NCBI RefSeq assembly: GCF_020524355.2 | Contig: NZ_CP129019.1 | Span: forward strand, 3,348,001-3,412,000 | Source of the DNA: Mesobacillus subterraneus | GTDB lineage: Bacteria; Bacillota; Bacilli; Bacillales; Cytobacillaceae | Reading direction: 5' to 3' | Length of the DNA stretch: 64,000 bases | In this document: one piece after another, positions 29,383 through 45,580 of the stretch | Position numbering within the stretch: position 1 is the stretch's first letter | Layout of the letters: the number at the start of each line of letters is the position of its first letter | Made by a program: the position numbers and the translations under genes | The notes under the pieces: generated by a model | Seen by the model: only the letters and a program-made list of their open reading frames with translations | What the model was told of the DNA's origin: nothing | Database searches by the model: none

Positions 29383-30198
29383 TCAGCAGCCTGCTTTCTT
29401 TTCGCTATAGTAGGCATTGATTTCTCCGCCAATGATGATGATATACGCGGATAAATAAAGCCAGATCATCAGGACGATGATTGCGCCGATACTGCCATAG
29501 GTGGCGGTATAAGAAGCGAAGTTGCTGACATAGTAAGAGAAACCGATTGATACGAGCACCCACCCTCCGGTTGCAAAAATCGATCCCGGTACCCCACTGA
29601 CACAGGTCAGCTTTTTGTTGGGAGCAATCCAGTACAAACCAAGGAAAACGATGAATAAAATCAAAATACTGATTACCCAGCGAAGCATATTCCAGACATA
29701 AAGGAATTCTTCCTTCAGTCCGAAATTCGCGAACAGCCAGCTCCCAATTTCTTTTCCAAACACCGGCAGGATCAAAGCGACCAGAAACACAAAAATCATG
29801 GCAAATGTCAAAAAAATCGCCATAAGCCTGCTTACGATAAACGACCTAGTCTCTTCAACTCGGTACGCACGGTTAAATGCCCTTACAATCGCATTGATTC
29901 CATTCGAAGCTGACCAAATTGTCGCCAGTAAACCAAAGCTAAGCAGCTTGCCATCTTTTTTCATGATATCCTCAAGACTGCTTTTGATCAGGTCCATCGA
30001 TTCACCTGGTGCATAGTCATCAAAAAAACCGAGGATATCCAATTCGGAAATTGGCAGATATGGAACAAGTGTGACCAGGAAAATCAGCAGCGGAAACAAG
30101 GAAAGCAAAAAGAAATAGGCAAGCTGCGCGGCAAGTGCCGGAACATCGTCCTCTTGAATTCTTTGCCACATATGCCTAAAAAATGATATATCAACCAT
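29383..30198 (-). CDS. YihY/YfkH-family membrane protein (BrkB-like)
   Basis: 271 aa with six transmembrane helices and the family signatures DDVPALAAQLAYFFLLSLFP (N-terminal) and GSIGAIIVLMIWLYLSAYII (C-terminal). Once annotated as RNase BN or BrkB; the real function is unknown. The C-terminal GGEINAYYSEKKAGC is usual. GAGGTGA precedes the ATG. It follows the YtxH gene on the same strand with a 52-bp gap, so the two may form an operon. The B. subtilis counterpart is YfkH. Confidence 0.88.
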   Translation of the reverse strand: MVDISFFRHMWQRIQEDDVPALAAQLAYFFLLSLFPLLIFLVTLVPYLPISELDILGFFDDYAPGESMDLIKSSLEDIMKKDGKLLSFGLLATIWSASNGINAIVRAFNRAYRVEETRSFIVSRLMAIFLTFAMIFVFLVALILPVFGKEIGSWLFANFGLKEEFLYVWNMLRWVISILILFIVFLGLYWIAPNKKLTCVSGVPGSIFATGGWVLVSIGFSYYVSNFASYTATYGSIGAIIVLMIWLYLSAYIIIIGGEINAYYSEKKAGC

Positions 30199-33360: not shown

Positions 33361-33942
33361 TCAAGCTGCCTTCACCCAATCTTCATTCATCACCTCTGCA
33401 TAAAAGCTGAGGAACTCTTTGAAAAATGGATGGTTTAATTTTGCTTTAGCGTTATCAAGCAGTGGTTTGAGGACAGGATTGATGAATCGTGTCATCATTT
33501 CCGCTTCAATTTCTTCAAGCTGTTGAAGCTGTTCTCCGTCTCCTTCTTGCTCCGCTTTAATTTCCCCCTGTAAAATTGAGCTGATGAATGCGGTCATGCT
33601 GCCGAAATGGTCTGGCAGTCTGTCTTTTTCAAGAGGGAAATAAAAGGCTGTTTTTTCATAAAGACCAATCAGGCAAAGCAGCTCGTGCCTGCGAGCTTCT
33701 TCATCTTCATTATTCTTCGTATAAGATGAAAAATAAGGGGAGACAAAGTGGTCTCCAGGTATGAAAAAGTGATTGTCATACCAGAGCTGCACTTCATCTC
33801 GTTTGTAAAATGAATGAAATGTAAGCTCCTCCTGCATTCCTTCAGGGACATCGTTCATGAACGCTTCATAAGTATCCCATTCCCCAAGCCAGATGCTTGT
33901 CATGATATTCGCGACCGCGAGCTTTCCATATCGTTCTTCCAT
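33361..33942 (-). CDS. TorD/DmsD-family redox enzyme maturation chaperone
   Basis: About 193 aa, all-helical. The family motif region is present in modified form (FISSILQGEIKAEQE), with FINPVLKPLLDNAKAKLNHP and a conserved FYxxxA-type end. Such chaperones bind the Tat signal peptide of a partner molybdoenzyme and assist cofactor loading; the partner is almost certainly the adjacent oxidoreductase (34005). The start is taken at ATG 33942, 6 nt after GGTGGAG; in-frame ATGs at 33945 and 33960 also exist. Last gene of the operon, 62 bp after the catalytic gene. Confidence 0.85.
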   Translation of the reverse strand: MEERYGKLAVANIMTSIWLGEWDTYEAFMNDVPEGMQEELTFHSFYKRDEVQLWYDNHFFIPGDHFVSPYFSSYTKNNEDEEARRHELLCLIGLYEKTAFYFPLEKDRLPDHFGSMTAFISSILQGEIKAEQEGDGEQLQQLEEIEAEMMTRFINPVLKPLLDNAKAKLNHPFFKEFLSFYAEVMNEDWVKAA

Positions 33943-34004
33943 CATTGTCTCCACCTTCATTTTTCAAGAAATTTCGAGGGCCCATCAAGGCACCCCCGAT
34001 GATG

Positions 34005-37000
34005 TTATGCTTTATCCACGTCTACGAATACGTCCTGCTGTGCCGGTCCGCCAATCAGCAAGTCTGCAAGGTAGCCTTCGAAATAACTGCCATCGCGGTC
34101 GGATAGTGCATTGACTGAGAAGCCTAGTCCGCGCGGTTTAGCGTAGCCGGATTCTTCATGCAGCGGCTTATTGAATTCATAGTCTGTGTGACCATATTTT
34201 CCAGCGGGCTCGATTGTTTTCCCGTCGACTTTGACTGCCTTTGAGCCGTATGCATCATGTCCGAAGCTGAAGTTTGCTCCGACGACGCCTGGCTTGATTC
34301 CTGGTGTTACGAGCGCCCGGCCCTTCACTTTTGAGTTATTGGATGAGATGTAAATCTCGTCATCGGTCTTGATGCCTTTTTTCTTGGCGTCGATTGGGTT
34401 GATCCACAAATAGTTTTCCGGTTTCACTTCACGGAGCCACGTATTTCCTTCGGTACGGTGAGTTGCCATATTCCTTGATTTCCAGTTGATGAATTGCAAC
34501 GGCTTGTTTGGCTTATAAACTTCTCCGTCGTATGTCTTGATTTCCTCCGCTACCGGAACGCCTTCAAAGAACTTGCCTGTATAGGCACTCTTGAAGCCTG
34601 CAGCCTTTTCATCGTAAAAATAAACCTGCTTTGCCCATTGATACTTGAGCTTGTTGCCGACATATTCATCGCCAGCTGCCTCAAAGCGGCCGCCGCGGTT
34701 CAATACGTAGACGACTTTCTTCCATTCATCCGGTTTAACGGCACTTTTGAGCTTCTGGATGTCAAAATATTTTCCGAGCGCTTTCTTTCTTGCTTTTTCA
34801 AAAATCGCCAGCTCTTCAGCATTTGCGTCCTTGACAGGCTTCTGTCCATCGAAGGCGATGTTCGCAATTCGTTTTAGGTAATAATCTTCAGGCGTGTTAA
34901 GCGCCGAACCATCTGCGAATGCTTTGTCGCCAACACCTGGAAGGCTCAAGCCTTTAAGCAAATCGATGTACACTTGTTCAGTTGGGCGCGCGTCTGGAAC
35001 GACTCTTGTCACCGGCTGAATGACGCCTGCGAATTTATGCTTCAGGATCGGGAAGATGTCCTCCGCGTTCCAGCTTTCCAGGTAAGCAAGATCCGGTAAA
35101 ATAAAGTCCGCATACTTCGAAGTCTCGCCGATGATTACGTCAGATGCCACTACAAGTTCCACAACTTTTGGATCCCTGATGAATTTTGCCTGCATTTCCG
35201 ATCTTGGCGCAGACATGACTGGTGAAGTCCTGTTGATCAGCAATGCCCTGATTTTGTATGGATAGCCTTCAGCTGAGCTTGGAAGGACATCATGGATCAG
35301 CTTATTGCCGAATGGATACCATGGGCGCTTTGCTGGATAGCCATCTTTTGCGAATAATGATGTTTTTTCATAAGGTACTTTTTGTCTTGTGACGGGGATG
35401 CCCCAGCCTTTGTTCGCATTCGGTACTGTCGCAAGATCGTAGCGTCCTTCGGTTGCTTTATACTTGGCGCCAAGTACGGTGTCGCCGCCTTTCCAGTCAT
35501 GGTTGCCGACAAGGTGGTTGAGCATATTGATTGCTCTCACGCTGTAATAGCCATTCGTATGCATAGCTGGTCCGCGGTAAGAATGGATGCCGACCTTTTT
35601 GCCGTGGGATGTGAATTCCCGAGCAATTTGGACGATCTGGTCAACAGGCACATCTGCCTGGTTTGCGTATTCTTCGATTGATTTTTCCATAACCCTGTCT
35701 TTAAAAATCCTGAAGACCGATTTTACTTTCATGCCATTGATTGTTGTATCAATATCAAGCTCGCCGTTTCTTGCCTTCGCATGTGAAACTGGCTTGCCGT
35801 TTTCGATGACCACAAACTCCTCGCCGCCGATTCCAAGGTCCTGGGCACGGACGAACGGGCGCTTTTTATCTCCTACATTCACAAGGAAGGAAGCATCACT
35901 CCAGGTTGTCTCTCCATCTTCATTTGCTGCTTCCTGGTTCGGATTGCGGAGGTAGATATCGTCATAACGATTGTTCTCAATGATCCATCGACACATTGCC
36001 ATGGCTAACGCTCCGTCACCACCCGGTTTAACCGGAACCCAAACGTCCGCTTTCTCTGCTGTCTTGCTGTAGCGTGGATCGATGACGACCATTTTCATGC
36101 CGCGGTCGATTGCGTTTGTGATTTGTGGAGCAAATGTAGTTGGACCACGGTTTGCCACCATTGGGTTTGTTCCCCAGACAATGACCATTTCTGCTTTATC
36201 ATAATCAGGAATCATCCGCTTCTTCGCCTTTTCAGAATCATGTGAGCGGACATTACCCATTACGCTTGTGATACCGCAATAGCCGCCATGGTCGTAATAG
36301 TTGGCAGTTCCTAAGCTGCTAGCAGCTAGTCGCTCGATGAATTCACGTCTGTGTCCTGCCATGACAGCAATCTGGTTTGCTTTCGGTCCAAGGTCAGGAT
36401 GGTTTGTATCAATTAAGACATCCTTGTATTTTTTATCAAATTCAGCTTTTGTCATTTCGCCAGCTTTCAGTTTATCCCAATCAGCCATGACCGCTGCTTC
36501 CGGGGCGTATTTCCACATTTCTTTTAACCCCGGAGTGCCAAGATCCTTGCTCCCCTCGAGGATTTCCTTGTAGGCCTCTTCCCAGCTGACTGATTTCCAG
36601 ACGCCGCTTCCCCTTTCGCCGACGCGCTTCAACGGTTTTTGGATCCTGAATGTATCATAGTTGGTCTGGATGCCGGCCTGCCCTTTCAAGCAGGTACGTC
36701 CACCGCGGAGGCCGCGACCCATTTTAGCCACATCGCCAGTTCCCTTTACAGCCTGTGAGACCGGCGTATCGTAGTTGATATGGCCGATTTGTACCATATT
36801 TATCGGGCTGTACTGGTTGCCGGCAATCTTGCGGACGATGGAAGAGTAAGCTCCCCCTGCCGCCCCGGCAGTGATATATGTTTTGATCGTACATGTCGCA
36901 TTACACTGCTGACATGACGTGAAGATGACATTTTCTGCTGTATAATCCTGATAATCTGTGCCGGTTCCGTGTGGCTCATCGATCCAGACATCGCCCATTA

Positions 37001-37103
37001 CCTGCTTGATTGGCCCAACGAATGCCGGACCGACAAACGCTACCGCTCCAAGCGTTCCAAGCGCTTTTAAAAATCCACGCCGTTTCATTGGTTTATTTTC
37101 CAT
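34005..37103 (-). CDS. Tat-exported molybdopterin oxidoreductase catalytic subunit (SrdA-like)
   Basis: 1032 aa. Twin-arginine signal MKRRGFLKALG (R8, R9) followed by a hydrophobic stretch, so it acts outside the membrane. [4Fe-4S] ligands: TSCQQCNATC (C64, C67, C71) and GGRTCLKGQ (C138). The Mo ligand is probably Cys276 in YYDHGGYCGITS. DMSO-reductase family signatures: MVIVWGTNPMVANRGPTTF and MVVIDPRYSKTAEKAD. The size and gene order B-C-A match srdBCA selenate reductase of Mesobacillus selenatarsenatis; tetrathionate, polysulfide or thiosulfate reductases are close alternatives. The substrate cannot be told from sequence alone. It overlaps the anchor gene by 11 bp. Confidence 0.88.
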   Translation of the reverse strand: MENKPMKRRGFLKALGTLGAVAFVGPAFVGPIKQVMGDVWIDEPHGTGTDYQDYTAENVIFTSCQQCNATCTIKTYITAGAAGGAYSSIVRKIAGNQYSPINMVQIGHINYDTPVSQAVKGTGDVAKMGRGLRGGRTCLKGQAGIQTNYDTFRIQKPLKRVGERGSGVWKSVSWEEAYKEILEGSKDLGTPGLKEMWKYAPEAAVMADWDKLKAGEMTKAEFDKKYKDVLIDTNHPDLGPKANQIAVMAGHRREFIERLAASSLGTANYYDHGGYCGITSVMGNVRSHDSEKAKKRMIPDYDKAEMVIVWGTNPMVANRGPTTFAPQITNAIDRGMKMVVIDPRYSKTAEKADVWVPVKPGGDGALAMAMCRWIIENNRYDDIYLRNPNQEAANEDGETTWSDASFLVNVGDKKRPFVRAQDLGIGGEEFVVIENGKPVSHAKARNGELDIDTTINGMKVKSVFRIFKDRVMEKSIEEYANQADVPVDQIVQIAREFTSHGKKVGIHSYRGPAMHTNGYYSVRAINMLNHLVGNHDWKGGDTVLGAKYKATEGRYDLATVPNANKGWGIPVTRQKVPYEKTSLFAKDGYPAKRPWYPFGNKLIHDVLPSSAEGYPYKIRALLINRTSPVMSAPRSEMQAKFIRDPKVVELVVASDVIIGETSKYADFILPDLAYLESWNAEDIFPILKHKFAGVIQPVTRVVPDARPTEQVYIDLLKGLSLPGVGDKAFADGSALNTPEDYYLKRIANIAFDGQKPVKDANAEELAIFEKARKKALGKYFDIQKLKSAVKPDEWKKVVYVLNRGGRFEAAGDEYVGNKLKYQWAKQVYFYDEKAAGFKSAYTGKFFEGVPVAEEIKTYDGEVYKPNKPLQFINWKSRNMATHRTEGNTWLREVKPENYLWINPIDAKKKGIKTDDEIYISSNNSKVKGRALVTPGIKPGVVGANFSFGHDAYGSKAVKVDGKTIEPAGKYGHTDYEFNKPLHEESGYAKPRGLGFSVNALSDRDGSYFEGYLADLLIGGPAQQDVFVDVDKA

Positions 37104-38391
37104 TATGACTCACCTCGTCAGAAGTTTCTTCGATTGGCAGCAGCAGCTCGCCGAATGAATAGATTAATAGTCCCATCGCGACAACACCGACACTCACCAT
37201 CCATTCCTTGATTGTCGGTGCGTAATTTCCCCAAGGCAGCTCATGGAAAACTGGCACGACAAGCGGAGGGACAACGATGTTGAAGCGTACGCCGATGATG
37301 CCAATAACGATTAGCACGGCGGCTGTCAGCAAGGCATTAATGTTTTCGCTTGTTTTCTTCCAGAATACAAGCGTGATTGGCACTACAGCACCAAGGAACA
37401 TTTGCACGATCCAGAACGACCAGGCTTTTTCACTTGCCATCATGGTTCCGAGGGTATCAAGGTGTTCCGCTTCTAGACCGTACCAGCCAGTGAGATATTC
37501 ATAGAATTGAAGACCCAGGTCGATGATCAGGAAGCCAACCATCAATTTTGCCAGGGATACAACCATGTTCTTATCAATTTCCTGCTTCTGGACTTTTTTC
37601 TTTATGACATACATTGCCAAAAGTAATGCGGTTCCAGAAACCATTGCCGATACGACGAAGATAATTGGGAATAATGCTGTATTCCAAGCAGGCCGTGCTT
37701 TTACAAGGGCAAATATCGTTCCAGTACCGCCATGGACGCCGAAGATCGCGATTGGGATTCCGACAGTTCCGAGGACTTTCATCCACATATGGTCACGTTT
37801 TTTTGTTGCTGCATTGATTGTTGAATTTTTAAAGGTTAATAACTTTGCCACAAAGCCTTGCATCGTGTTTTTCTTTGCAGCTCGGACAAGGTCTTCCCTC
37901 ATCGCAATGTAAAGCTCCACCATCAGCAGCGCAATGTAGACAAGGTAAAAGTGGACCTCCCACCCTAATGGTGAAGTAACATTCCAGTAGATAATCGCAT
38001 TCAGCAGACGCTCTGGACGACCAAGATCCATCAGGACGAATGTCAGTGCGACGATCATACACACAATCGCTGTGAACAGCGCCGCCTTGCCGACTCTCTC
38101 GTATTCTTCCATCCCGAAAACATAGATCAACGTCGACAGCAGGAACGAACCCGCGCTCAAACCAACAAAGAAAATGTAGAAAGCAATCCAGGCTCCCCAT
38201 GGAGTGATGCTGGAAAGATTCGTTGCTGCCAGGCCAGTGATGAAACGCTCTACGATAAAATACCCGCCTATTAAGAAAGCAACTGTCAAAGCAGATATCC
38301 AAATTTTAAAAGCTTTTGATACTTGCACATTTATTTTCGTTTTTGATGTACTTTTCTCTTTTAAATCAACCGCAAGATTGGCCATCGCCAT
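37093..38391 (-). CDS. NrfD/PsrC-type membrane anchor subunit (SrdC-like)
   Basis: 432 aa with about nine or ten transmembrane helices. First helix ISALTVAFLIGGYFIVERF, then the conserved GLSAGSFLLSTLIYVFGMEE, and VLMDLGRPERLLNAIIYWN with the usual Asp-Gly-Arg-Pro signature of quinol-interacting NrfD proteins. Passes electrons from menaquinol to the Fe-S subunit; no heme ligands are expected. AGGAGG is 2 nt before ATG 38391 and 8 nt before ATG 38385, so the second Met may be the true start. Tightly packed between the Fe-S and catalytic genes. Confidence 0.88.
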   Translation of the reverse strand: MAMANLAVDLKEKSTSKTKINVQVSKAFKIWISALTVAFLIGGYFIVERFITGLAATNLSSITPWGAWIAFYIFFVGLSAGSFLLSTLIYVFGMEEYERVGKAALFTAIVCMIVALTFVLMDLGRPERLLNAIIYWNVTSPLGWEVHFYLVYIALLMVELYIAMREDLVRAAKKNTMQGFVAKLLTFKNSTINAATKKRDHMWMKVLGTVGIPIAIFGVHGGTGTIFALVKARPAWNTALFPIIFVVSAMVSGTALLLAMYVIKKKVQKQEIDKNMVVSLAKLMVGFLIIDLGLQFYEYLTGWYGLEAEHLDTLGTMMASEKAWSFWIVQMFLGAVVPITLVFWKKTSENINALLTAAVLIVIGIIGVRFNIVVPPLVVPVFHELPWGNYAPTIKEWMVSVGVVAMGLLIYSFGELLLPIEETSDEVSHNGK

Positions 38392-38397
38392 TCCCTC

Positions 38398-39285
38398 CTA
38401 TCTTAAGTAAATAACATTTGGATGCGTTCCAAGCTCTTCCTTAAGTCGGAATGCTCTAGGACTCGCTGCAAGCTTGGATACAACACTGTTCGGATCGCTG
38501 ATATCTCCGAAGAAACGAGCATCTCCAATGCAAGTTTCCACACATGCCGGCTCTTCCCCTCTTTGCAGGCGGTGGAAGCAGAAGCTGCATTTACGGACCG
38601 TGCCGATTGGTGTCTTGCCTTTTTCACGGTTGCCGCGTTCTACGCCGTATTCAGGGCTTGTTACATCATTAGCTCCCTGCATTTCCTGTTCATAGCTTTC
38701 GCCGAAATCGAAGGAGCGAGCTCCATACGGGCAGGCTACGATGCAGTAACGGCAGCCGATGCAGCGGTCATTGTCAATCGCGACAATTCCGTTCTCCAAT
38801 TTATAAGTCGCTCTCGTCGGACAAACCTGGGCACAAGCTGGTTTGTCACACTGCATGCACGGCCTTGGCAGGTTGACGGCCTTGATGTTCGGAAACTCCC
38901 CTTCTAGCGATTCCATGACGACGTTGTAGGATATCCCCGGCGGCGTCCTGTTTTCTGCCTTACAGCTGACCGTACATGTATCACAGCCGACACATTTCTT
39001 CAGATCGATGACCATCGCCCATTTTGGGCCATCACCCTTCCTGATGTCTGGTCCATCTGCTGATGCATAATAGTTGCCGAATTCCTTGGTCAGTGATGAA
39101 GAATAGACTTTATGGAAGTCTTCAATTTTCAGTTTGCCGCTGATGACCTTCCTGGCATCGCGCGCCATGTTCAGCCCGAGCTCTGTGTCATACTGTGATT
39201 CATCCATTTCTTTCTTGGCATCTGGAACCATCTTGTCGACGATTTTGTCGTAATCTACTTTTTTCTCATTTGAAAATAGACCCAT
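38398..39285 (-). CDS. Four-cluster ferredoxin subunit of the molybdoenzyme (SrdB-like)
   Basis: 295 aa. Cysteine sets for four [4Fe-4S] clusters: CVGCDTCTVSCKAENRTP, CMQCDKPACAQVCPTRATY, CIGCRYCIVACPYGAR and CSFCFHRLQRGEEPACVETC. The first about 90 residues are an extra hydrophilic domain. No Tat or Sec signal is present, so it probably travels with the Tat-exported catalytic subunit. Electron wire between the NrfD anchor and the Mo site. AGAGGTGAG precedes the ATG; 24 bp after tatA. Confidence 0.9.
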   Translation of the reverse strand: MGLFSNEKKVDYDKIVDKMVPDAKKEMDESQYDTELGLNMARDARKVISGKLKIEDFHKVYSSSLTKEFGNYYASADGPDIRKGDGPKWAMVIDLKKCVGCDTCTVSCKAENRTPPGISYNVVMESLEGEFPNIKAVNLPRPCMQCDKPACAQVCPTRATYKLENGIVAIDNDRCIGCRYCIVACPYGARSFDFGESYEQEMQGANDVTSPEYGVERGNREKGKTPIGTVRKCSFCFHRLQRGEEPACVETCIGDARFFGDISDPNSVVSKLAASPRAFRLKEELGTHPNVIYLR

Positions 39286-39309
39286 TTTTACTCACCTCTT
39301 TTTATGCGT

Positions 39310-39519
39310 TTAGATTTCTTTCTTGATTTCTTTGATTTCTTTGATGTCATCTGCGATATCGTCAGTGATATCACTTGTCAGTTCACGAGTCGATTTTTTA
39401 AATTCCTTCAGCGTCTGGCCAAACGCCCTGCCGATTTCCGGAAGCTTTTTCGGACCAAAGATGATTAACGCCAATGTGAGAATTAAAATCAAACCAGGAA
39501 TACCAATATTGGATAGCAT
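39310..39519 (-). CDS. tatA: Twin-arginine translocase TatA/E
   Basis: 69 aa. N-terminal transmembrane helix ([20 protein letters not shown]), the [20 protein letters not shown] hinge and amphipathic helix, and a charged tail ([17 protein letters not shown]). Forms the Tat pore. Being the first gene of the molybdoenzyme operon suggests a dedicated translocase component for the folded catalytic subunit. AAAGGATG precedes the ATG. The 5' leader is about 30 nt from the predicted sigma-54 start. Confidence 0.93.
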
Positions 39520-39558
39520 TATGCCACATCCTTTTTATTTTTTCTTGCTAATATATAA

Positions 39559-39574
39559 TGCAAGCTGCGTGCCA
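39559..39574 (-). promoter_or_regulatory. Sigma-54 (-24/-12) promoter of the tatA-srdBCA-like operon
   Basis: Minus strand reads TGGCACGCAGCTTGCA, which matches the -24/-12 consensus TGGCACG-N4-TTGCA. The predicted start is about 12 nt downstream (near 39548), 30 nt before the tatA ATG. Confidence 0.85.
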
Positions 39575-39669
39575 ACTTTTTCGGCATGGTGGATTATAGG
39601 GAGTTCGGCTTCTTGTAATCCATGGGGGGAGTAAGGCTGCAGGATTCGTGACATCTTTGTGAACGCCAA

Positions 39670-39710
39670 AAGGCGGCTGAAACCGAATTGTAGATTCGGA
39701 ATCAGCCGCT
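39670..39710 (-). terminator. Terminator of the NERD-domain gene
   Basis: GCGGCTGA-AACCGAAT / ATTCGGAA-TCAGCCGC, a long stem, then CCTTTTGG on the minus strand. It isolates the sigma-54 promoter from upstream transcription. Confidence 0.75.
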
Positions 39711-39722
39711 GGTTGTGTGACA

Positions 39723-39766
39723 TTTTGGCATGGTTTTGCAATTTTGGCATGTGACATTTTGGCATG
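39723..39766. promoter_or_regulatory. Triple TTTTGGCATG direct repeat, candidate activator sites
   Basis: TTTTGGCATG at 39723, 39742 and 39757. They lie about 150-190 bp upstream of the sigma-54 promoter, the usual range for enhancer sites of NtrC-type activators. A related word (TTTTCGGCATG) occurs at 39579, next to the promoter. Confidence 0.5.
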
Positions 39767-39800
39767 GTTTGCTGGAATGAAAGGAATCCAGATTGGCGGC

Positions 39801-40784
39801 TTATTCCCATAACGGAAAATTTTTGCCAGGTTTGTAGACTCTGCCTTTTTTAGTGCCGACGCTATCGAGATCCATTGATGAAAGCAGCCTTTTGGCTTGG
39901 TGTATGGAGGGGATGTTGAGGAAATCGCTAAATTGTCTGCTCGTAATAGCAGGACCATAAATGATGAAGAAATCCCTAAGCGCATCAATATGAGCATTTT
40001 TTGATAGATGTCCGCATTTTTCACACACCCAGTTGCCATGAATCTTTTTCATGCCTATTCGGCTGCATTCAGGACATTGGACTCCTTTGTGCACTTGATT
40101 CATAGGTAAGTTCATTGAAAGAATATCAGGGATATACGGTTCATGGCTATTCAATAAAAGCTTGGTGATTTTTTTGATTTCTTTTGTTGATAAAACCTGG
40201 TTATGATATTTGTCATCAAAGTTTTGAATTTTATAGGCAACAGCTGGAGTCTTAAAAACTCTCATTCTTACCTCCTGGCTGTTCCCTGGATTTCTGATGA
40301 TAGCCTGTGAGTTACTGATGGAAACCAGAAATTCGATTGGGGGTGGAGAAAAATAATGCTTAATTAGGAAGGATTTTAGTTGTGAAGCCTGGGTTCTTGT
40401 TTGCAGGATCGGGTCCGGGTAAACTTTTTCGATTCCATTCAACGTTTGAAGCAAATAATTGAATTCCGGATAGAAATCCAATACGCCAGCGTAATTTTTT
40501 GAGTCAATGATAAGGATGAAGGTGTCTGATATTAGGAGGGAATCAATCTGGAAGTGGGTATTATTATGTGGAATCCTCAAATCGTGTAAAATATGGAATT
40601 TGGAATGGTCAAATTGCGATAAATGGTAATCTAATTCCTTTTCACCTCTATAACCTGCTAATTTTCTGGATAATTTACTCTCAAGTTCTGCTTGCAGCTG
40701 TGGATTTAAGGTAAATCTTCTTAATAATGTCTTCAAAACAGTAATTTCTCTTGGATAATCCCGGATTTTTTCAATCAAGCACAT
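39801..40784 (-). CDS. NERD-domain protein with zinc ribbon
   Basis: About 327 aa. N-terminal nuclease-related (NERD) domain: LAGYRGEKELDYHLSQF, then FQIDSLLISDTFILIIDSKN with the catalytic-type Asp and xD-x-K pattern. A zinc ribbon follows (CPECSRIGMKKI..CEKCGHL, about 235-257), then a helical C-terminus. Proposed nuclease or DNA-processing role; unproven for the family. The start could be ATG 40784 or TTG 40775; the latter is 8 nt from AAGGGAG. It lies between the sensor operon and the respiratory operon, with no obvious tie to either. Confidence 0.82.
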   Translation of the reverse strand: MCLIEKIRDYPREITVLKTLLRRFTLNPQLQAELESKLSRKLAGYRGEKELDYHLSQFDHSKFHILHDLRIPHNNTHFQIDSLLISDTFILIIDSKNYAGVLDFYPEFNYLLQTLNGIEKVYPDPILQTRTQASQLKSFLIKHYFSPPPIEFLVSISNSQAIIRNPGNSQEVRMRVFKTPAVAYKIQNFDDKYHNQVLSTKEIKKITKLLLNSHEPYIPDILSMNLPMNQVHKGVQCPECSRIGMKKIHGNWVCEKCGHLSKNAHIDALRDFFIIYGPAITSRQFSDFLNIPSIHQAKRLLSSMDLDSVGTKKGRVYKPGKNFPLWE

Positions 40785-40857
40785 CACTCCCTTATATTTT
40801 TTCTCTATAATGATTCTCTATGTGCTCTTCAAATTCCTTTTACCAGGTCATTAAAAG

Positions 40858-41024: not shown

Positions 41025-42365
41025 CTATTCTTTCAACCCGTATTGATCGATTTTGCGGTACAAATTGCGGACGCTGATGCCTAACACATCTGCCGCCTTC
41101 GTTTTGTTCCAGTTCATCTGCTTCAAAGCGTTTTCGATATGCACTCTTTCTACTTCTTCCAAGGAGCAGAGTGGAGAAAGCTGAACTTCTGGCTCAGCCT
41201 TGGTTTTACCAGCGTGAGGCAAAAGTAAATCCTCAGTTCCAATTATGCTTCCTTTGGATAACAACACACCGCGTTCAATCAGGTGGCTCAGCTCCCGGAC
41301 ATTACCCGGAAAATCATAATCTTCAAGGGCAGCGAATGCTTCACTCGATAGCAGCTTCGATGGGTCTTTCGTTTTCCCGATGAAATGCTCAATCAGCGCT
41401 GGCAGGTCTCCCTTCCGTTCACGCAGCGGCGGGATCGTCAGCTTGACAACATTCAACCGGTAATACAAGTCTTCGCGGAACCGCCCTTGGGCAACTTCTT
41501 TTTCCATGTCCCGATTTGTTGCAGCGACTACCCGGACGCTAACATGCCGTTCCCGGACATCGCCGACGCGTCGGAATTCACCTGTCTCCAGGAAACGCAG
41601 CAATTTCACCTGCAGCGCCAATGGCATTTCGCCCAACTCATCCAGAAATAGAGTTCCGCCTTTTGCTGCTTCAACGAGACCTTTCTTATCCTGGCTCGCT
41701 CCGGTAAAAGCACCGCGGGCATGGCCGAACAGCTCGCTTTCCAGCAGGTGCTCAGGGAGCGCACCCGAATTCACCGGCACGAATGGTTCTTCTGCACGAC
41801 AACTCCAATAATGAAGTGCTTTTGCAAACAGCTCCTTGCCTGTGCCGCTTTCGCCCTCAATCAGGACCGGTACCTCGCTGTCAGCAATCCTCCGCGTCAT
41901 CTCAATCACTTCTTTAAAATTGGCACTGTTTCCAATGATATTGAAACCATTATGCTGGGCGATGATTTTTTTCATTGAGTCATTCTTTTCTTTCAGCGCT
42001 TTATTTTCCGCAGCCTTCCCTATCGTCAGTTCCAATTCTGATAGATTATAAGGCTTTGTGATATAATCGAATGCGCCCACCTTCATAGCTTCGATCGCAG
42101 TATCAATCGTCCCGTGCCCGGTCAAAATCAGCACTTCGATTTCCGGCTGGGCTTTCTTGGTTTCTTTCAATAGCTCAATCCCATCCATACCAGGCAGCCT
42201 AATATCATAGACACCAATGTCATATTCATTCTTTTTCACAAGTTTAAGGGCGTCCTCTGCTGTGCCAGCGCTGTCCACGTCAAATCCCTTACGCTTCAGC
42301 CTTCTTACCAGAAGCTCAAGCAGATCCTGCTCATCGTCAACGACTAACAATCTTGTTGCTGACAT
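41025..42365 (-). CDS. NtrC-family sigma-54 response regulator
   Basis: 446 aa. Receiver domain with phospho-acceptor D54 (GVYDIRLPGMDG), AAA+ domain with Walker A GESGTGKELFAKAL, the sigma-54 contact loop HARGAFTGASQDKKG, Walker B GGTLFLDELGEM, and a Fis-type C-terminal helix-turn-helix (NWNKTKAADVLGISVRNLYR). It activates sigma-54 promoters, and the one at 39559 is the obvious candidate target. It overlaps the kinase gene by 29 bp. Sigma-54 two-component regulators are few in Bacillus, which makes the link to the nearby promoter stronger. Confidence 0.93.
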   Translation of the reverse strand: MSATRLLVVDDEQDLLELLVRRLKRKGFDVDSAGTAEDALKLVKKNEYDIGVYDIRLPGMDGIELLKETKKAQPEIEVLILTGHGTIDTAIEAMKVGAFDYITKPYNLSELELTIGKAAENKALKEKNDSMKKIIAQHNGFNIIGNSANFKEVIEMTRRIADSEVPVLIEGESGTGKELFAKALHYWSCRAEEPFVPVNSGALPEHLLESELFGHARGAFTGASQDKKGLVEAAKGGTLFLDELGEMPLALQVKLLRFLETGEFRRVGDVRERHVSVRVVAATNRDMEKEVAQGRFREDLYYRLNVVKLTIPPLRERKGDLPALIEHFIGKTKDPSKLLSSEAFAALEDYDFPGNVRELSHLIERGVLLSKGSIIGTEDLLLPHAGKTKAEPEVQLSPLCSLEEVERVHIENALKQMNWNKTKAADVLGISVRNLYRKIDQYGLKE

Positions 42366-44575
42366 CGTAGCCCACCTCCATTATTTCTTGTGCCGACCGC
42401 TCGTAGTTATTTTCACTGTTCACTACTGATTCTCGTGCTTGCAAGTGACTGCCGATACTGCGGTCCTTCTCTATTGGTCCCTGAGCCACATCCAGACCTG
42501 CTTTCAGTAAACGCTCTGCCGGCAGCTGGATTTCTACCGTCGTTCCTTCTGATGGCTTGCTGTCAATCGTGATGCTCCCGCCGAATTGCTGGATGATGCC
42601 GTAACATACTGACAAGCCAAGCCCGGTTCCTTTACCAACTGGCTTTGTCGTAAAGAAAGGATCAAACAGTTTATCCATCGCTTCGGCAGGGATTCCATGT
42701 CCACTGTCTGTGACCTTAATCGAAACCACATCTCCATTTCTTTCTGAAGCTGAAACTACCAGTCTTCCTTCGCTTTCCATCGCATCGACTGCGTTATTGA
42801 TCAGGTTGACGATCACCTGCATCAGCTTGAGGCCGTCACCATTCACAGCCGGCAGCCCTTCTTCCACATGAAGTTCAAGCTGGATCCGCTGCTTTTTCAG
42901 CTGATGCTCGACAAGGCTGACGCTATTCTCGATAATTTCCTTCACCCGGATCTGGTCCTCTGTCCAATCATTCTTCCGGGAAAAATTAAGCAGGTTTCCG
43001 GTTATTCGTTTGCAGCGCTCAGTATTTTCCTTGATTTTACGGAGATAGTGCTCCATTTCATCCTCATCGAGATCCTCGTCATCTGCTTGCATTCGGTCAA
43101 TCAAATCCTCTGCGTATACATTAATGGTCGCCAACGGATTGTTGACCTCATGCGCAAAGCTCGAAGCCATGATGCCTAGCGCGCTTAGTTTATCGGTCTG
43201 GATCATCGTTTCTTCCAATTGTTTTTGCTCGGTAATATCTTCTAGGACGACTAGGAACTCTCCCTCTTCATCGATCGCATGATTCAGCGGGAAAACCCTG
43301 TGCCTGAAAATCCGCTCGCCATTCGCGCCGTCCTTAAACTTCATGACTTCGTCGGCGATTTTATCAAGATCCGGACAGGTAATTGGACAATTCAAGCAAG
43401 GAGCATTTTCCCCGCCAATCACTGCGTAACAAGGCAGGGTCAACCGGTCTTCCTTCAGCCACCCTTTTAAAATCGGGTTCATCCAGGTGATTCGATACTC
43501 TTTCGTCACGAGAGCCAGCCCGGCACCAATTCCGTTGACAACCACATCGAGCCTTTCCTTCTCCTGCTCGAGAAGTCTTGATTTTTCAAGCAGCTCCTTG
43601 CTCATATCATTGAAGGAATCAGCCAGTTTCCCCAGCTCATCGGTCCGTTTCATTTTTACCGGCTTGATTTTCCGGCCTTGCTTCAAATTGTTCATTTCCC
43701 GGTCGATTGAGACAATTGGCTTTGTAAAATAAAGCCCCGCCCAAACGCTGATTAAGCTTACGGTTAAAATCATCAATGCGACTGCACCTATGCCACTTTG
43801 CAGCATCCTGTTGATTGGGGCAAATGCCGTTGTTTTCGGCTGCTCCATCACTAGCACCCAGTTTAAGTCTTCAATCTCAGCTGTAACACCAAGCTCATCC
43901 TCGCTGCCAGACGTTTGTTTTTGCCAGAGCTTACTGTAGTCCTGGTGGGCGATGACTCGGTCTTTGTCATCGATTAAATATATATATGAGGAGTGGTCCT
44001 GGCGCATGGACGAAATTTTCCCGATTATTTTCTGAAGCTGGACAACGACCCCGATGGCTTTTTTCGATTCACCTTCGTAAAAAGGAATTGCCAGCTTCAT
44101 AACAGGCTGGCCGTACTGGTTGAATTCTACCTGGCCGTAGACCCTGTCAAGTGTCTGGAGCTGGAACCACATTTCATCCGTGAACCACCGCTCGTTATCC
44201 CCGGCAATGTTGAGCTCGTATCGCGATACCCTTTTTTTCCACAAAGCCTTTATCATCGGCAATTATGACCTCCTCGACTGATTCGCTTTGCTGCAGGAGC
44301 TCATATAAGGCGCTTTGTTTTTCATTTAATAGATTAAGAGATGCAAGGACTTGGATTCGCTGAAATGTCTGGCTGAATTCATAATCGATTTCACCCGATA
44401 GATTTTCAAGCACAAGATGCTGTTTTTCCAGAATCCTCGTTTCCAGATCCGATTTAACAAAAGAGTAGTAAAATAAGCTAATCAGCAGCAACGGGATGGT
44501 CGACATCACGACACCGAATACAAGAACCTTGTTGCGGATTGTCTGCGAATGCAGGAAATTGATCAGTGCTCTCAT
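42337..44575 (-). CDS. Membrane sensor histidine kinase (one-base frame break)
   Basis: About 745 aa if restored. N-terminal TM (VLVFGVVMSTIPLLLISLFY), an extracytoplasmic Cache-like sensor (about 40-285), a second TM, HAMP, then a PAS domain with a cysteine cluster (GGENAPCLNCPITCPDLDK). HisKA follows with the phospho-acceptor in SSFAHEVNNPLATIN, then an HATPase with DSGHGIPAEAMDKLFDPFFT and GTGLGLSVCYGI. A T7 run on the plus strand (44232-44238) has one base too many: removing it joins KGFVEK to RVSRYELNIAGDNE. As written, two partial frames (44195-44575 and 42337-44262) result. Its start overlaps the upstream binding-protein stop (ATGA). Confidence 0.87.
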
Positions 44576-45580
44576 CGCTTCCTGCCTCCTTGTACTTCAG
44601 GATGAATCAGCTCGGCGATATGCAGCAGATCTTGATTAATGGCGACTCCAAGCGAGTCCTTCGTCTGCTGGTTGACGACAAAACGAATGCCATCGGGCAG
44701 TTCTACAGGCAATTCCCCCGGCTTGTTTCCCTGAAGAATCAAGCTGACAAACCTTGATGCCTGATAGCCTTGCGAATAAAAGCTGGATCCGTAGCTTGCT
44801 AACAACCCTTTTTTCGCTTCAAAATCATACAATCCCATTGCCGCAACTTTTTTCTCCTCCGTCAGCTTCACAATCTCAGCTGTCAGCGATTCAATCCTGA
44901 AACTCGGCAAGATAAGGATTGCCTCTCCATCATCAACCGTTTTCCATAGAGTATCCAGGCATTCCTTCGAGCTGGCATCGCATGGGGAAATCGCCACCCC
45001 CAAGTCCTTCGCTGCTTTTCTTGTTTCTTCAAGGCTCAATTTGCTGACATCAATTTTGCTGTCATAAATCACATGCACCCTTTCAATAGCGGGCACAAGT
45101 GAAGTAAGCATCTCGAGGCGCTTGCCAGAGATACTTGCGTGATAATTATTGATCCCGGTAAAAAGACCTCCAGGTGACTTGTAATCTTTAATCAATCCAA
45201 GTTCCTTCGGTGCCGCAAGACCTGCAAAAACTACCGGAATTTCAATGTTTCTCTCATCCATTTTTGCTTTCAGACGCTGAGTTTCAATCCCGCCAAGCGT
45301 AACAATTAGATTGGGTTCATCCTCGAGCAGCTCATCGATTTGCTTTTCAATCAGCACTTCATCATCATGTGCATTTTTCACAGTAAAATGAACCTCATTA
45401 TCGGTATACCCGAGATCTTTCAACCCAGCTTCCAAACCAGTGAATTTCTCATATCTGTTTTCACCAATCATCAGGACGCCAATTTCTACCGGCTCATCTC
45501 CCCCTGACTCCAAGAAAAGCATATATAATAGCCGAAACGGCAATCATTGTAAGAAAAAAGAAATACCACTTTGTTTTCAC
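44572..45580 (-). CDS. ABC-type substrate-binding-like protein of a sensor operon (frame break in leader)
   Basis: About 335 aa if restored. Periplasmic-binding fold of the ABC_sub_bind type: VEIGVLMIGENRYEKFTGLE, NLIVTLGGIETQRLKAK, GGLFTGINNYHASISGKRLE and FYSQGYQASRFVSLILQGN. GTG 45580 (after TTGGGGGCG) begins a signal-anchor VKTKWYFFFLTMIAVSAIIY that ends in the wrong frame; one base too many in the C5 run at 45500-45504 explains it. The remaining frame from TTG 45543 has no sensible leader. First gene of an operon with a kinase and a sigma-54 activator and no transporter genes, so it probably presents a ligand to the kinase. Confidence 0.8.

Follow-up and report, generated by a model that had tools for sequence, protein, structure and literature searches.

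A putative sigma-54 control region in front of a molybdenum reductase operon of Mesobacillus subterraneus and its association with a three-gene sensor

We analysed a stretch of 64,000 nucleotides from Mesobacillus subterraneus (contig NZ_CP129019.1, positions 3,348,001 to 3,412,000), which is called the window here and to which all coordinates of this strain refer. The genome is a single contig of 4.79 Mb and encodes RpoN (PF04552, E 1.1e-61). On the minus strand, the window contains a molybdoenzyme operon that begins with tatA (39310-39519; PF02416; ATG at 39519) and continues with the genes for an iron-sulfur subunit with 4Fe-4S domains (B, 38398-39285), an NrfD-type membrane subunit (C, 37093-38391; PF03916), a TtrA/SrdA-like molybdopterin catalytic subunit of 1032 amino acids (A, 34005-37103; PF00384 and PF01568) and a TorD/NarJ-type chaperone (33361-33960; PF02613). 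The nearest named relatives of the enzyme belong to Mesobacillus, at 97%. Downstream of the operon lies a gene for a BrkB-family membrane protein (29383-30198; PF03631), an ordinary neighbour for which the Pfam name 'virulence factor' is a family label only.

Three genes upstream of the operon, also on the minus strand, encode an NtrC-type response regulator (41025-42365), a membrane histidine kinase (42337-44575, in two overlapping frames, 42337-44262 and 44195-44575) and a PF04392 solute-binding protein (44572-45543), the N-terminal membrane segment of which is found upstream in another frame. The regulator consists of a receiver domain (PF00072), a sigma-54 AAA+ domain with the GAFTGA motif (PF00158) and a Fis-type helix-turn-helix (PF02954). 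The original prediction had named both the molybdoenzyme operon and a neighbouring NtrC-type activator, and the domain matches bear out the two assignments. Between the regulator gene and the promoter region, a NERD-domain gene (39801-40787, minus strand; PF08378) occurs in half of the related loci (11 of 22) and is not part of the switch proposed below. This gene is unusually variable, with 58-60% identity in L002, L003 and L019, where the regulator and tatA are 96-100% identical to those of the window, which suggests allele exchange at 39801-40787.

The minus-strand sequence TGGCACGCAGCTTGCA at 39559-39574 had been proposed as a -24/-12 promoter about 40 bp before tatA. It is indeed an exact match to the sigma-54 pattern TGGCACN5TTGCA, the only one without mismatch in the window, with GG at -24 and GC at -12 in the TGGCAC-N5-TTGCA spacing, and 39 bases separate it from the ATG of tatA. 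The transcript start is predicted near 39548. Matches with two mismatches numbered 18 in the window versus 20.6 in shuffled sequences, and such weak matches are therefore meaningless. When the strict pattern TTGGCAYN5TTGCW was searched genome-wide, 14 sites were found versus one for a reversed-pattern control. We compared these sites with seven strong sigma-54 activator domains (the search gave 12 matches, of which four weak ones were set aside and one split gene was counted once), and each of the seven has at least one strict site within 2 kb, while 8 of the 14 sites lie within 2 kb of one of these domains. A chance resemblance, with the operon transcribed from an ordinary sigma-A promoter, would agree with the chance frequency of the two-mismatch matches, but the match at this position is exact and is kept in 30 of 30 upstream regions, and a sigma-70-type scan of 39300-40200 gave no site on the operon's strand. 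We regard this explanation as extremely improbable.

Farther upstream, TTTTGGCATG occurs exactly on the plus strand at 39723, 39742 and 39757. At one mismatch there are 11 matches in the window, and 41 of 100 shuffles gave as many or more; single copies are unremarkable, but three exact copies within 44 bp are remarkable. The triple repeat of the original prediction thus stands with respect to the three copies and their place, but not with respect to the unit. Distant relatives keep a 13-bp dyad, TGNCA-N3-TGNCA, instead of TTTTGGCATG, which was therefore rejected as the binding unit, and the TTTTGGCATG copies are halves of this dyad. Two perfect dyads with the sequence TGCCAAAATGTCA, putative upstream activator sites, are located 34 bp apart on the minus strand at 39752-39764 and 39718-39730, and a degenerate copy between them (TGCCAAAATTGCA, 39737-39749, minus strand) has one mismatch to TGNCA-N3-TGNCA. 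Genome-wide, the loose dyad was found at 132 sites versus 44 for the control, and its A-rich form TGNCAAAATGNCA at nine sites in 4.79 Mb versus 4 for the control. Of the nine, only the two at this locus have a strict sigma-54 site within 500 bp. The dyad ranked first of 3328 candidates tested, being present in 16 of 16 regions (next best, 6), a result that serves as a check and not as a blind discovery, since the 16 regions were hand-chosen from 30 and the dyad had already been spotted by eye. The regions omitted from this ranking were L002-L006, L008, L011, L012, L017, L019, L021 and L023, which are Mesobacillus or close to it, as well as L131, which nearly duplicates L129, and L013, which lacks a strict dyad.

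Other features were observed around these elements. First, TGCCGAAAAAGTTGGCA at 39570-39586 is an imperfect inverted repeat of TGCCA/TGGCA half-sites that overlaps the -24 element, and its perfect form TGCCAAAAAAGTTGGCA was seen by eye in several relatives. Second, a conserved element GTTCACA..TGTCA at 39649-39664, near -145 from tatA, was found in 17 of 34 upstream regions, that is, in 17 of the 30 with the promoter and in none of the 4 without it. We take it to resemble the half-sites of the Bacillus anaerobic regulators ResD and Rex. Third, a GC-rich hairpin followed by four T lies between the dyads and the promoter (39673-39709, minus strand) and folds at -26.1 kcal/mol with its flanks. 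It is probably the terminator of the upstream genes; a simple terminator scan reported nothing at this hairpin because its T run is short. In L129 and L130, the best hairpin is located near the promoter instead.

For the comparison of relatives, 22 loci were gathered by their enzyme and more regions were taken from 397 genomes of the order, and 34 upstream regions were compared (33 of 400 bp, and that of L008 of 182 bp). Every region of the regulator-positive group contains the promoter (30 of 30), and 28 of the 30 contain the dyad; many of these regions come from close Mesobacillus and are not independent, and the others reach down to 52-53% enzyme identity. Both elements were absent (0 of 4) from the operons of regulator-less genomes. 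First-order Markov versions of the 30 regions gave on average 0.1 promoters and 0.3 dyads, with a maximum of 2. The two regions in which the dyad is missing are L008 and L013, and the L013 genome does have the regulator. Within the group of 30, the regulator was observed for 29, L008 being a metagenome fragment in which none was found. It adjoins the operon as a whole gene in 26 of the 30, is a fragment at the contig edge in L127 and is elsewhere in the genome in L013 and L016. At strict thresholds, the enzyme was detected in 21 of the 397 genomes and the regulator in 17, all of them inside the 21; one of the other four, the genome of L127, is 62% complete, and its contig begins in the regulator fragment that adjoins the operon. 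Separately, the record of L017, titled Chryseobacterium sp. ISL-80, contains a Mesobacillus-type locus (A 88%, B 97%) and is probably mislabelled or contaminated.

Judging from these sequences, the promoter and the paired activator sites are kept or lost together with the dedicated three-gene sensor in the relatives compared. It had been expected that promoter, repeats and sensor genes would stay together, and the counts agree with this; the comparison likewise backs the predicted sigma-54 control, with dependence on sigma-54 itself still a prediction. The genome has seven strong activator genes, and one of the other activators might drive this promoter while the dyads serve a different protein. 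However, promoter and dyads are lacking in all four operons without this regulator, despite the other activators in the L018 genome, and the L016 genome keeps the elements though its regulator is unlinked, so that we consider such an assignment very unlikely. We suggest, with a probability of roughly 85%, that this region controls the molybdenum reductase as part of a dedicated sigma-54 switch.

In L018, L125, L126 and L133, a different two-component system is located upstream of the operon, with an OmpR-type regulator in the three that were scanned (L018, L125 and L133), and searches of the four genomes found neither the kinase nor the regulator ortholog. The two pieces of the L133/L134 enzyme share 80% and 74% identity with the enzyme of the window. 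In a quick enzyme tree, in which the L134 row is a 602-aa piece, the regulator-less state takes two changes, both forced by well-supported branches, and the promoter class therefore follows the regulator and not the enzyme. The swapped operons illustrate how regulator and promoter class can change jointly around a retained enzyme.

In the dedicated switch that we propose, the binding protein would detect an oxyanion outside the membrane, and the membrane histidine kinase would pass the signal on to the NtrC-type regulator. Once phosphorylated, the regulator would bind the pair of TGNCA-N3-TGNCA dyads located about 150-190 bp upstream, the DNA would loop, and ATP hydrolysis would open the sigma-54 polymerase at TGGCACGCAGCTTGCA, by which tatA, the membrane-bound molybdenum reductase and the chaperone would be switched on. 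The sequence comparison supports the promoter and the dyads, the association of both with the regulator, and the linkage of regulator and enzyme across genomes, and we infer the direction of the signal, the phosphorylation, the looping and the ATP-driven opening from the known workings of sigma-54 activators.

Here, we need to consider the state of the sensor genes in this strain. Compared with L002 and L003, the kinase gene has a one-base length difference at 44232, in a run of seven A, and the binding-protein gene has one at 45500, in a run of five G, and both genes are thereby out of frame. The kinase is a single open reading frame in 9 of the 10 relatives listed, and L022 has a shorter one. 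The switch could thus be real in relatives and dead in this strain, since the differences hold against both relatives aligned. However, both positions are in homopolymer runs, and this single-contig assembly also splits another activator gene, a pattern to be expected from uncorrected reads; the length differences are for these reasons probably sequencing errors. The enzyme, the regulator and the promoter are intact, and we consider loss of the switch in this strain improbable.

The locus has the same set of parts as AioXSR, namely a molybdenum enzyme behind a sigma-54 promoter and, adjacent to it, a binding protein, a kinase and an NtrC-type regulator. AioXSR belongs to another phylum, and its enzyme, AioBA, oxidises arsenite, in contrast to the TtrA/SrdA-like enzyme found here. 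The binding proteins differ in family as well, AioX being of the PhnD type and that of the window belonging to PF04392. By analogy, the locus would work like AioXSR, differing in binding-protein family, enzyme and phylum. According to the consulted parts of PMC2848651, the AoxRS/AioXSR system of arsenite oxidase (Herminiimonas arsenicoxydans and others) also has the kinase and the NtrC-type regulator beside a Tat-exported molybdenum enzyme, its sigma-54 promoter TGGCACGCAGTTTGC has nearly the same letters as that of the window, and the occurrence of this promoter follows that of the two-component system, the two being either both present or both absent, as observed here.

We then compared the enzyme with TtrRS-TtrBCA of Salmonella tetrathionate respiration, which includes a B-C-A molybdenum reductase belonging to the same broad lineage. 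TtrA was the top NCBIfam model for subunit A with 488 bits, and the equivalog cut-off of 1750 was not reached. TtrBCA has its own two-component system, TtrRS, in which the regulator, TtrR, is of the LuxR/FixJ type and the promoter of the sigma-70 type, in contrast to the NtrC-type regulator and sigma-54 promoter of the window. The binding protein was also considered as a source for the identity of the ligand; five basic residues (R50, K53, K161, R162 and R284 in L003 numbering) are invariant among 18 orthologs, which names no ligand, and this approach was abandoned.

Two related Neobacillus genomes link the regulator to a tsdA-like gene. In Neobacillus massiliamazoniensis (L084), the three sensor genes are apart from the operon, downstream of a gene for a lipoprotein-like diheme cytochrome, and in N. 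rhizosphaerae (L083) the regulator alone is downstream of the same tsdA-like gene. The L083 and L084 cytochromes contain a SoxA/TsdA domain (PF21342, E 6e-20 and 2e-20, respectively), two CxxCH motifs and the heme-1 cysteine region. The best solved relatives of the L084 protein are thiosulfate dehydrogenases (E 5e-51), and the L083 protein gave only a sub-threshold SoxA match against NCBIfam. TsdA enzymes interconvert thiosulfate and tetrathionate, as stated in PMC6879331. Upstream of each of the two tsdA-like genes there are a sigma-54 site, one strict dyad and one dyad with a single mismatch. Searches of the N. rhizosphaerae genome located the kinase ortholog solely next to the reductase and the regulator solely next to tsdA, and the binding protein was observed beside the reductase in a local neighbourhood view. 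The gap between tsdA and the regulator holds small remnants with similarity to the binding protein (E 1.6e-7) and to the end of the kinase (E 2e-4). The simplest history would be two copies of the three sensor genes, each trimmed, which now form one system for both targets. Upstream of the L083 tsdA-like gene (L083:10943-16126), open reading frames resembling sulfur-handling genes (TusA-like, rhodanese-like and a permease) were noted by eye.

Other associations with tsdA were examined across the genomes. In L134, a genome without the regulator, tsdA-like genes adjoin the chaperone gene, and in L015 a 64-aa tsdA-like remnant adjoins the three sensor genes. TsdA homologs were found in 13 of 21 enzyme-bearing genomes versus 9 of 376 others, with ten of the 13 from one genus. 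As a general second target of the regulator, tsdA was rejected, because 25 of 25 further tsdA-like loci, which include the window's own genome and genus, lack promoter and dyad within 500 bp upstream (222 bp in one case). These 25 loci also count against a sulfur oxyanion as the signal. Taken from the neighbourhoods above, the signal is nevertheless suggested to be tetrathionate or thiosulfate, and we give this identity of the oxyanion somewhat better than even odds.

The same sigma-54 switch could instead serve a selenate reductase, SrdBCA, or a reductase of arsenate or another metalloid oxyanion, with that oxyanion as the signal. Mesobacillus selenatarsenatis SF-1 is the source of the selenate reductase srdBCA, which shares organism group, subunit order and enzyme lineage with the window operon (PMC4319585), and SF-1 holds an ortholog of this operon with subunit A 97% identical and the gene order B-C-A. 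Moreover, SrdA is placed in the TtrA/SrdA lineage in the parts of PMC7331816 and PMC10100899 consulted, and Salisediminibacterium selenitireducens has the same system with an enzyme identical to that of L132. However, SF-1 has a second B-C-A molybdenum reductase operon (L082:5487-10772) with subunit A 40% identical, which could be srd, and the link of the regulator to tsdA-like genes points to sulfur. With two B-C-A operons in SF-1, and with neither the literature consulted nor protein names singling out one of them as srd, we did not accept the filing of the window operon as srdBCA from the SF-1 match. The second operon is a candidate for the true srdBCA. Tepidibacillus and Desulfuribacillus stibiiarsenatis are among its relatives, and its counterpart was not found in the window's genome. 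No sigma-54 site precedes its B gene, and a receiver gene, NarL-like or of another type, is located further upstream. Selenate or another metalloid oxyanion is thus a possible but rather unlikely signal, and tetrathionate or thiosulfate looks likelier than selenate.

Sigma-54 is also the factor of known regulons in Bacillota. In the passages of PMC6615313 and PMC12316311 consulted, it is tied mainly to carbon and nitrogen use with mostly one-component activators, and in Clostridiales several activator sites are found 100-250 bp upstream of the promoter, as here, while only about 10% of the activators carry a receiver domain. The available text of PMC6615313 contains neither 'respirat' nor 'molybd', and that of PMC12316311 contains none of 'anaerobic respiration', 'tetrathionate' and 'selenate'. 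Two-component control of tetrathionate and thiosulfate metabolism is described for RsrSR/TspSR of Acidithiobacillus caldus in the excerpted text of PMC5093147, where TspSR is called sigma-54-dependent as unpublished data. These systems differ from ours in that they control oxidative pathways of a Gram-negative acidophile, RsrR is OmpR-like, and the targets are tetH-doxDA and sox with no molybdenum reductase (same excerpts). No report of the present system was found in the literature searched by title and abstract start, mostly outside subscription journals.

Based on these comparisons, it seems an even bet that a so far unrecognised Gram-positive tetrathionate (thiosulfate) sensor is involved, in which a PF04392 protein, a kinase and an NtrC-type regulator act through sigma-54 and TGNCA-N3-TGNCA dyads on a molybdenum tetrathionate reductase, and in certain species on TsdA too, and in which regulator and promoter class were jointly exchanged at least twice for OmpR-type systems within Bacillales with the enzyme kept. 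If true, a two-component sigma-54 switch for one respiratory enzyme would extend sigma-54 to anaerobic respiration. The hosts are soil and sediment bacilli, some of them studied for selenium and arsenic. Since the DNA site and the regulator are defined and there is a candidate for the signal, the case is directly testable. We also observed a dyad, TGTCATTTTGTCA, at L124:628-640, directly upstream of the binding-protein gene (open reading frame from 692), and the sensor operon could be autoregulated in that genome.
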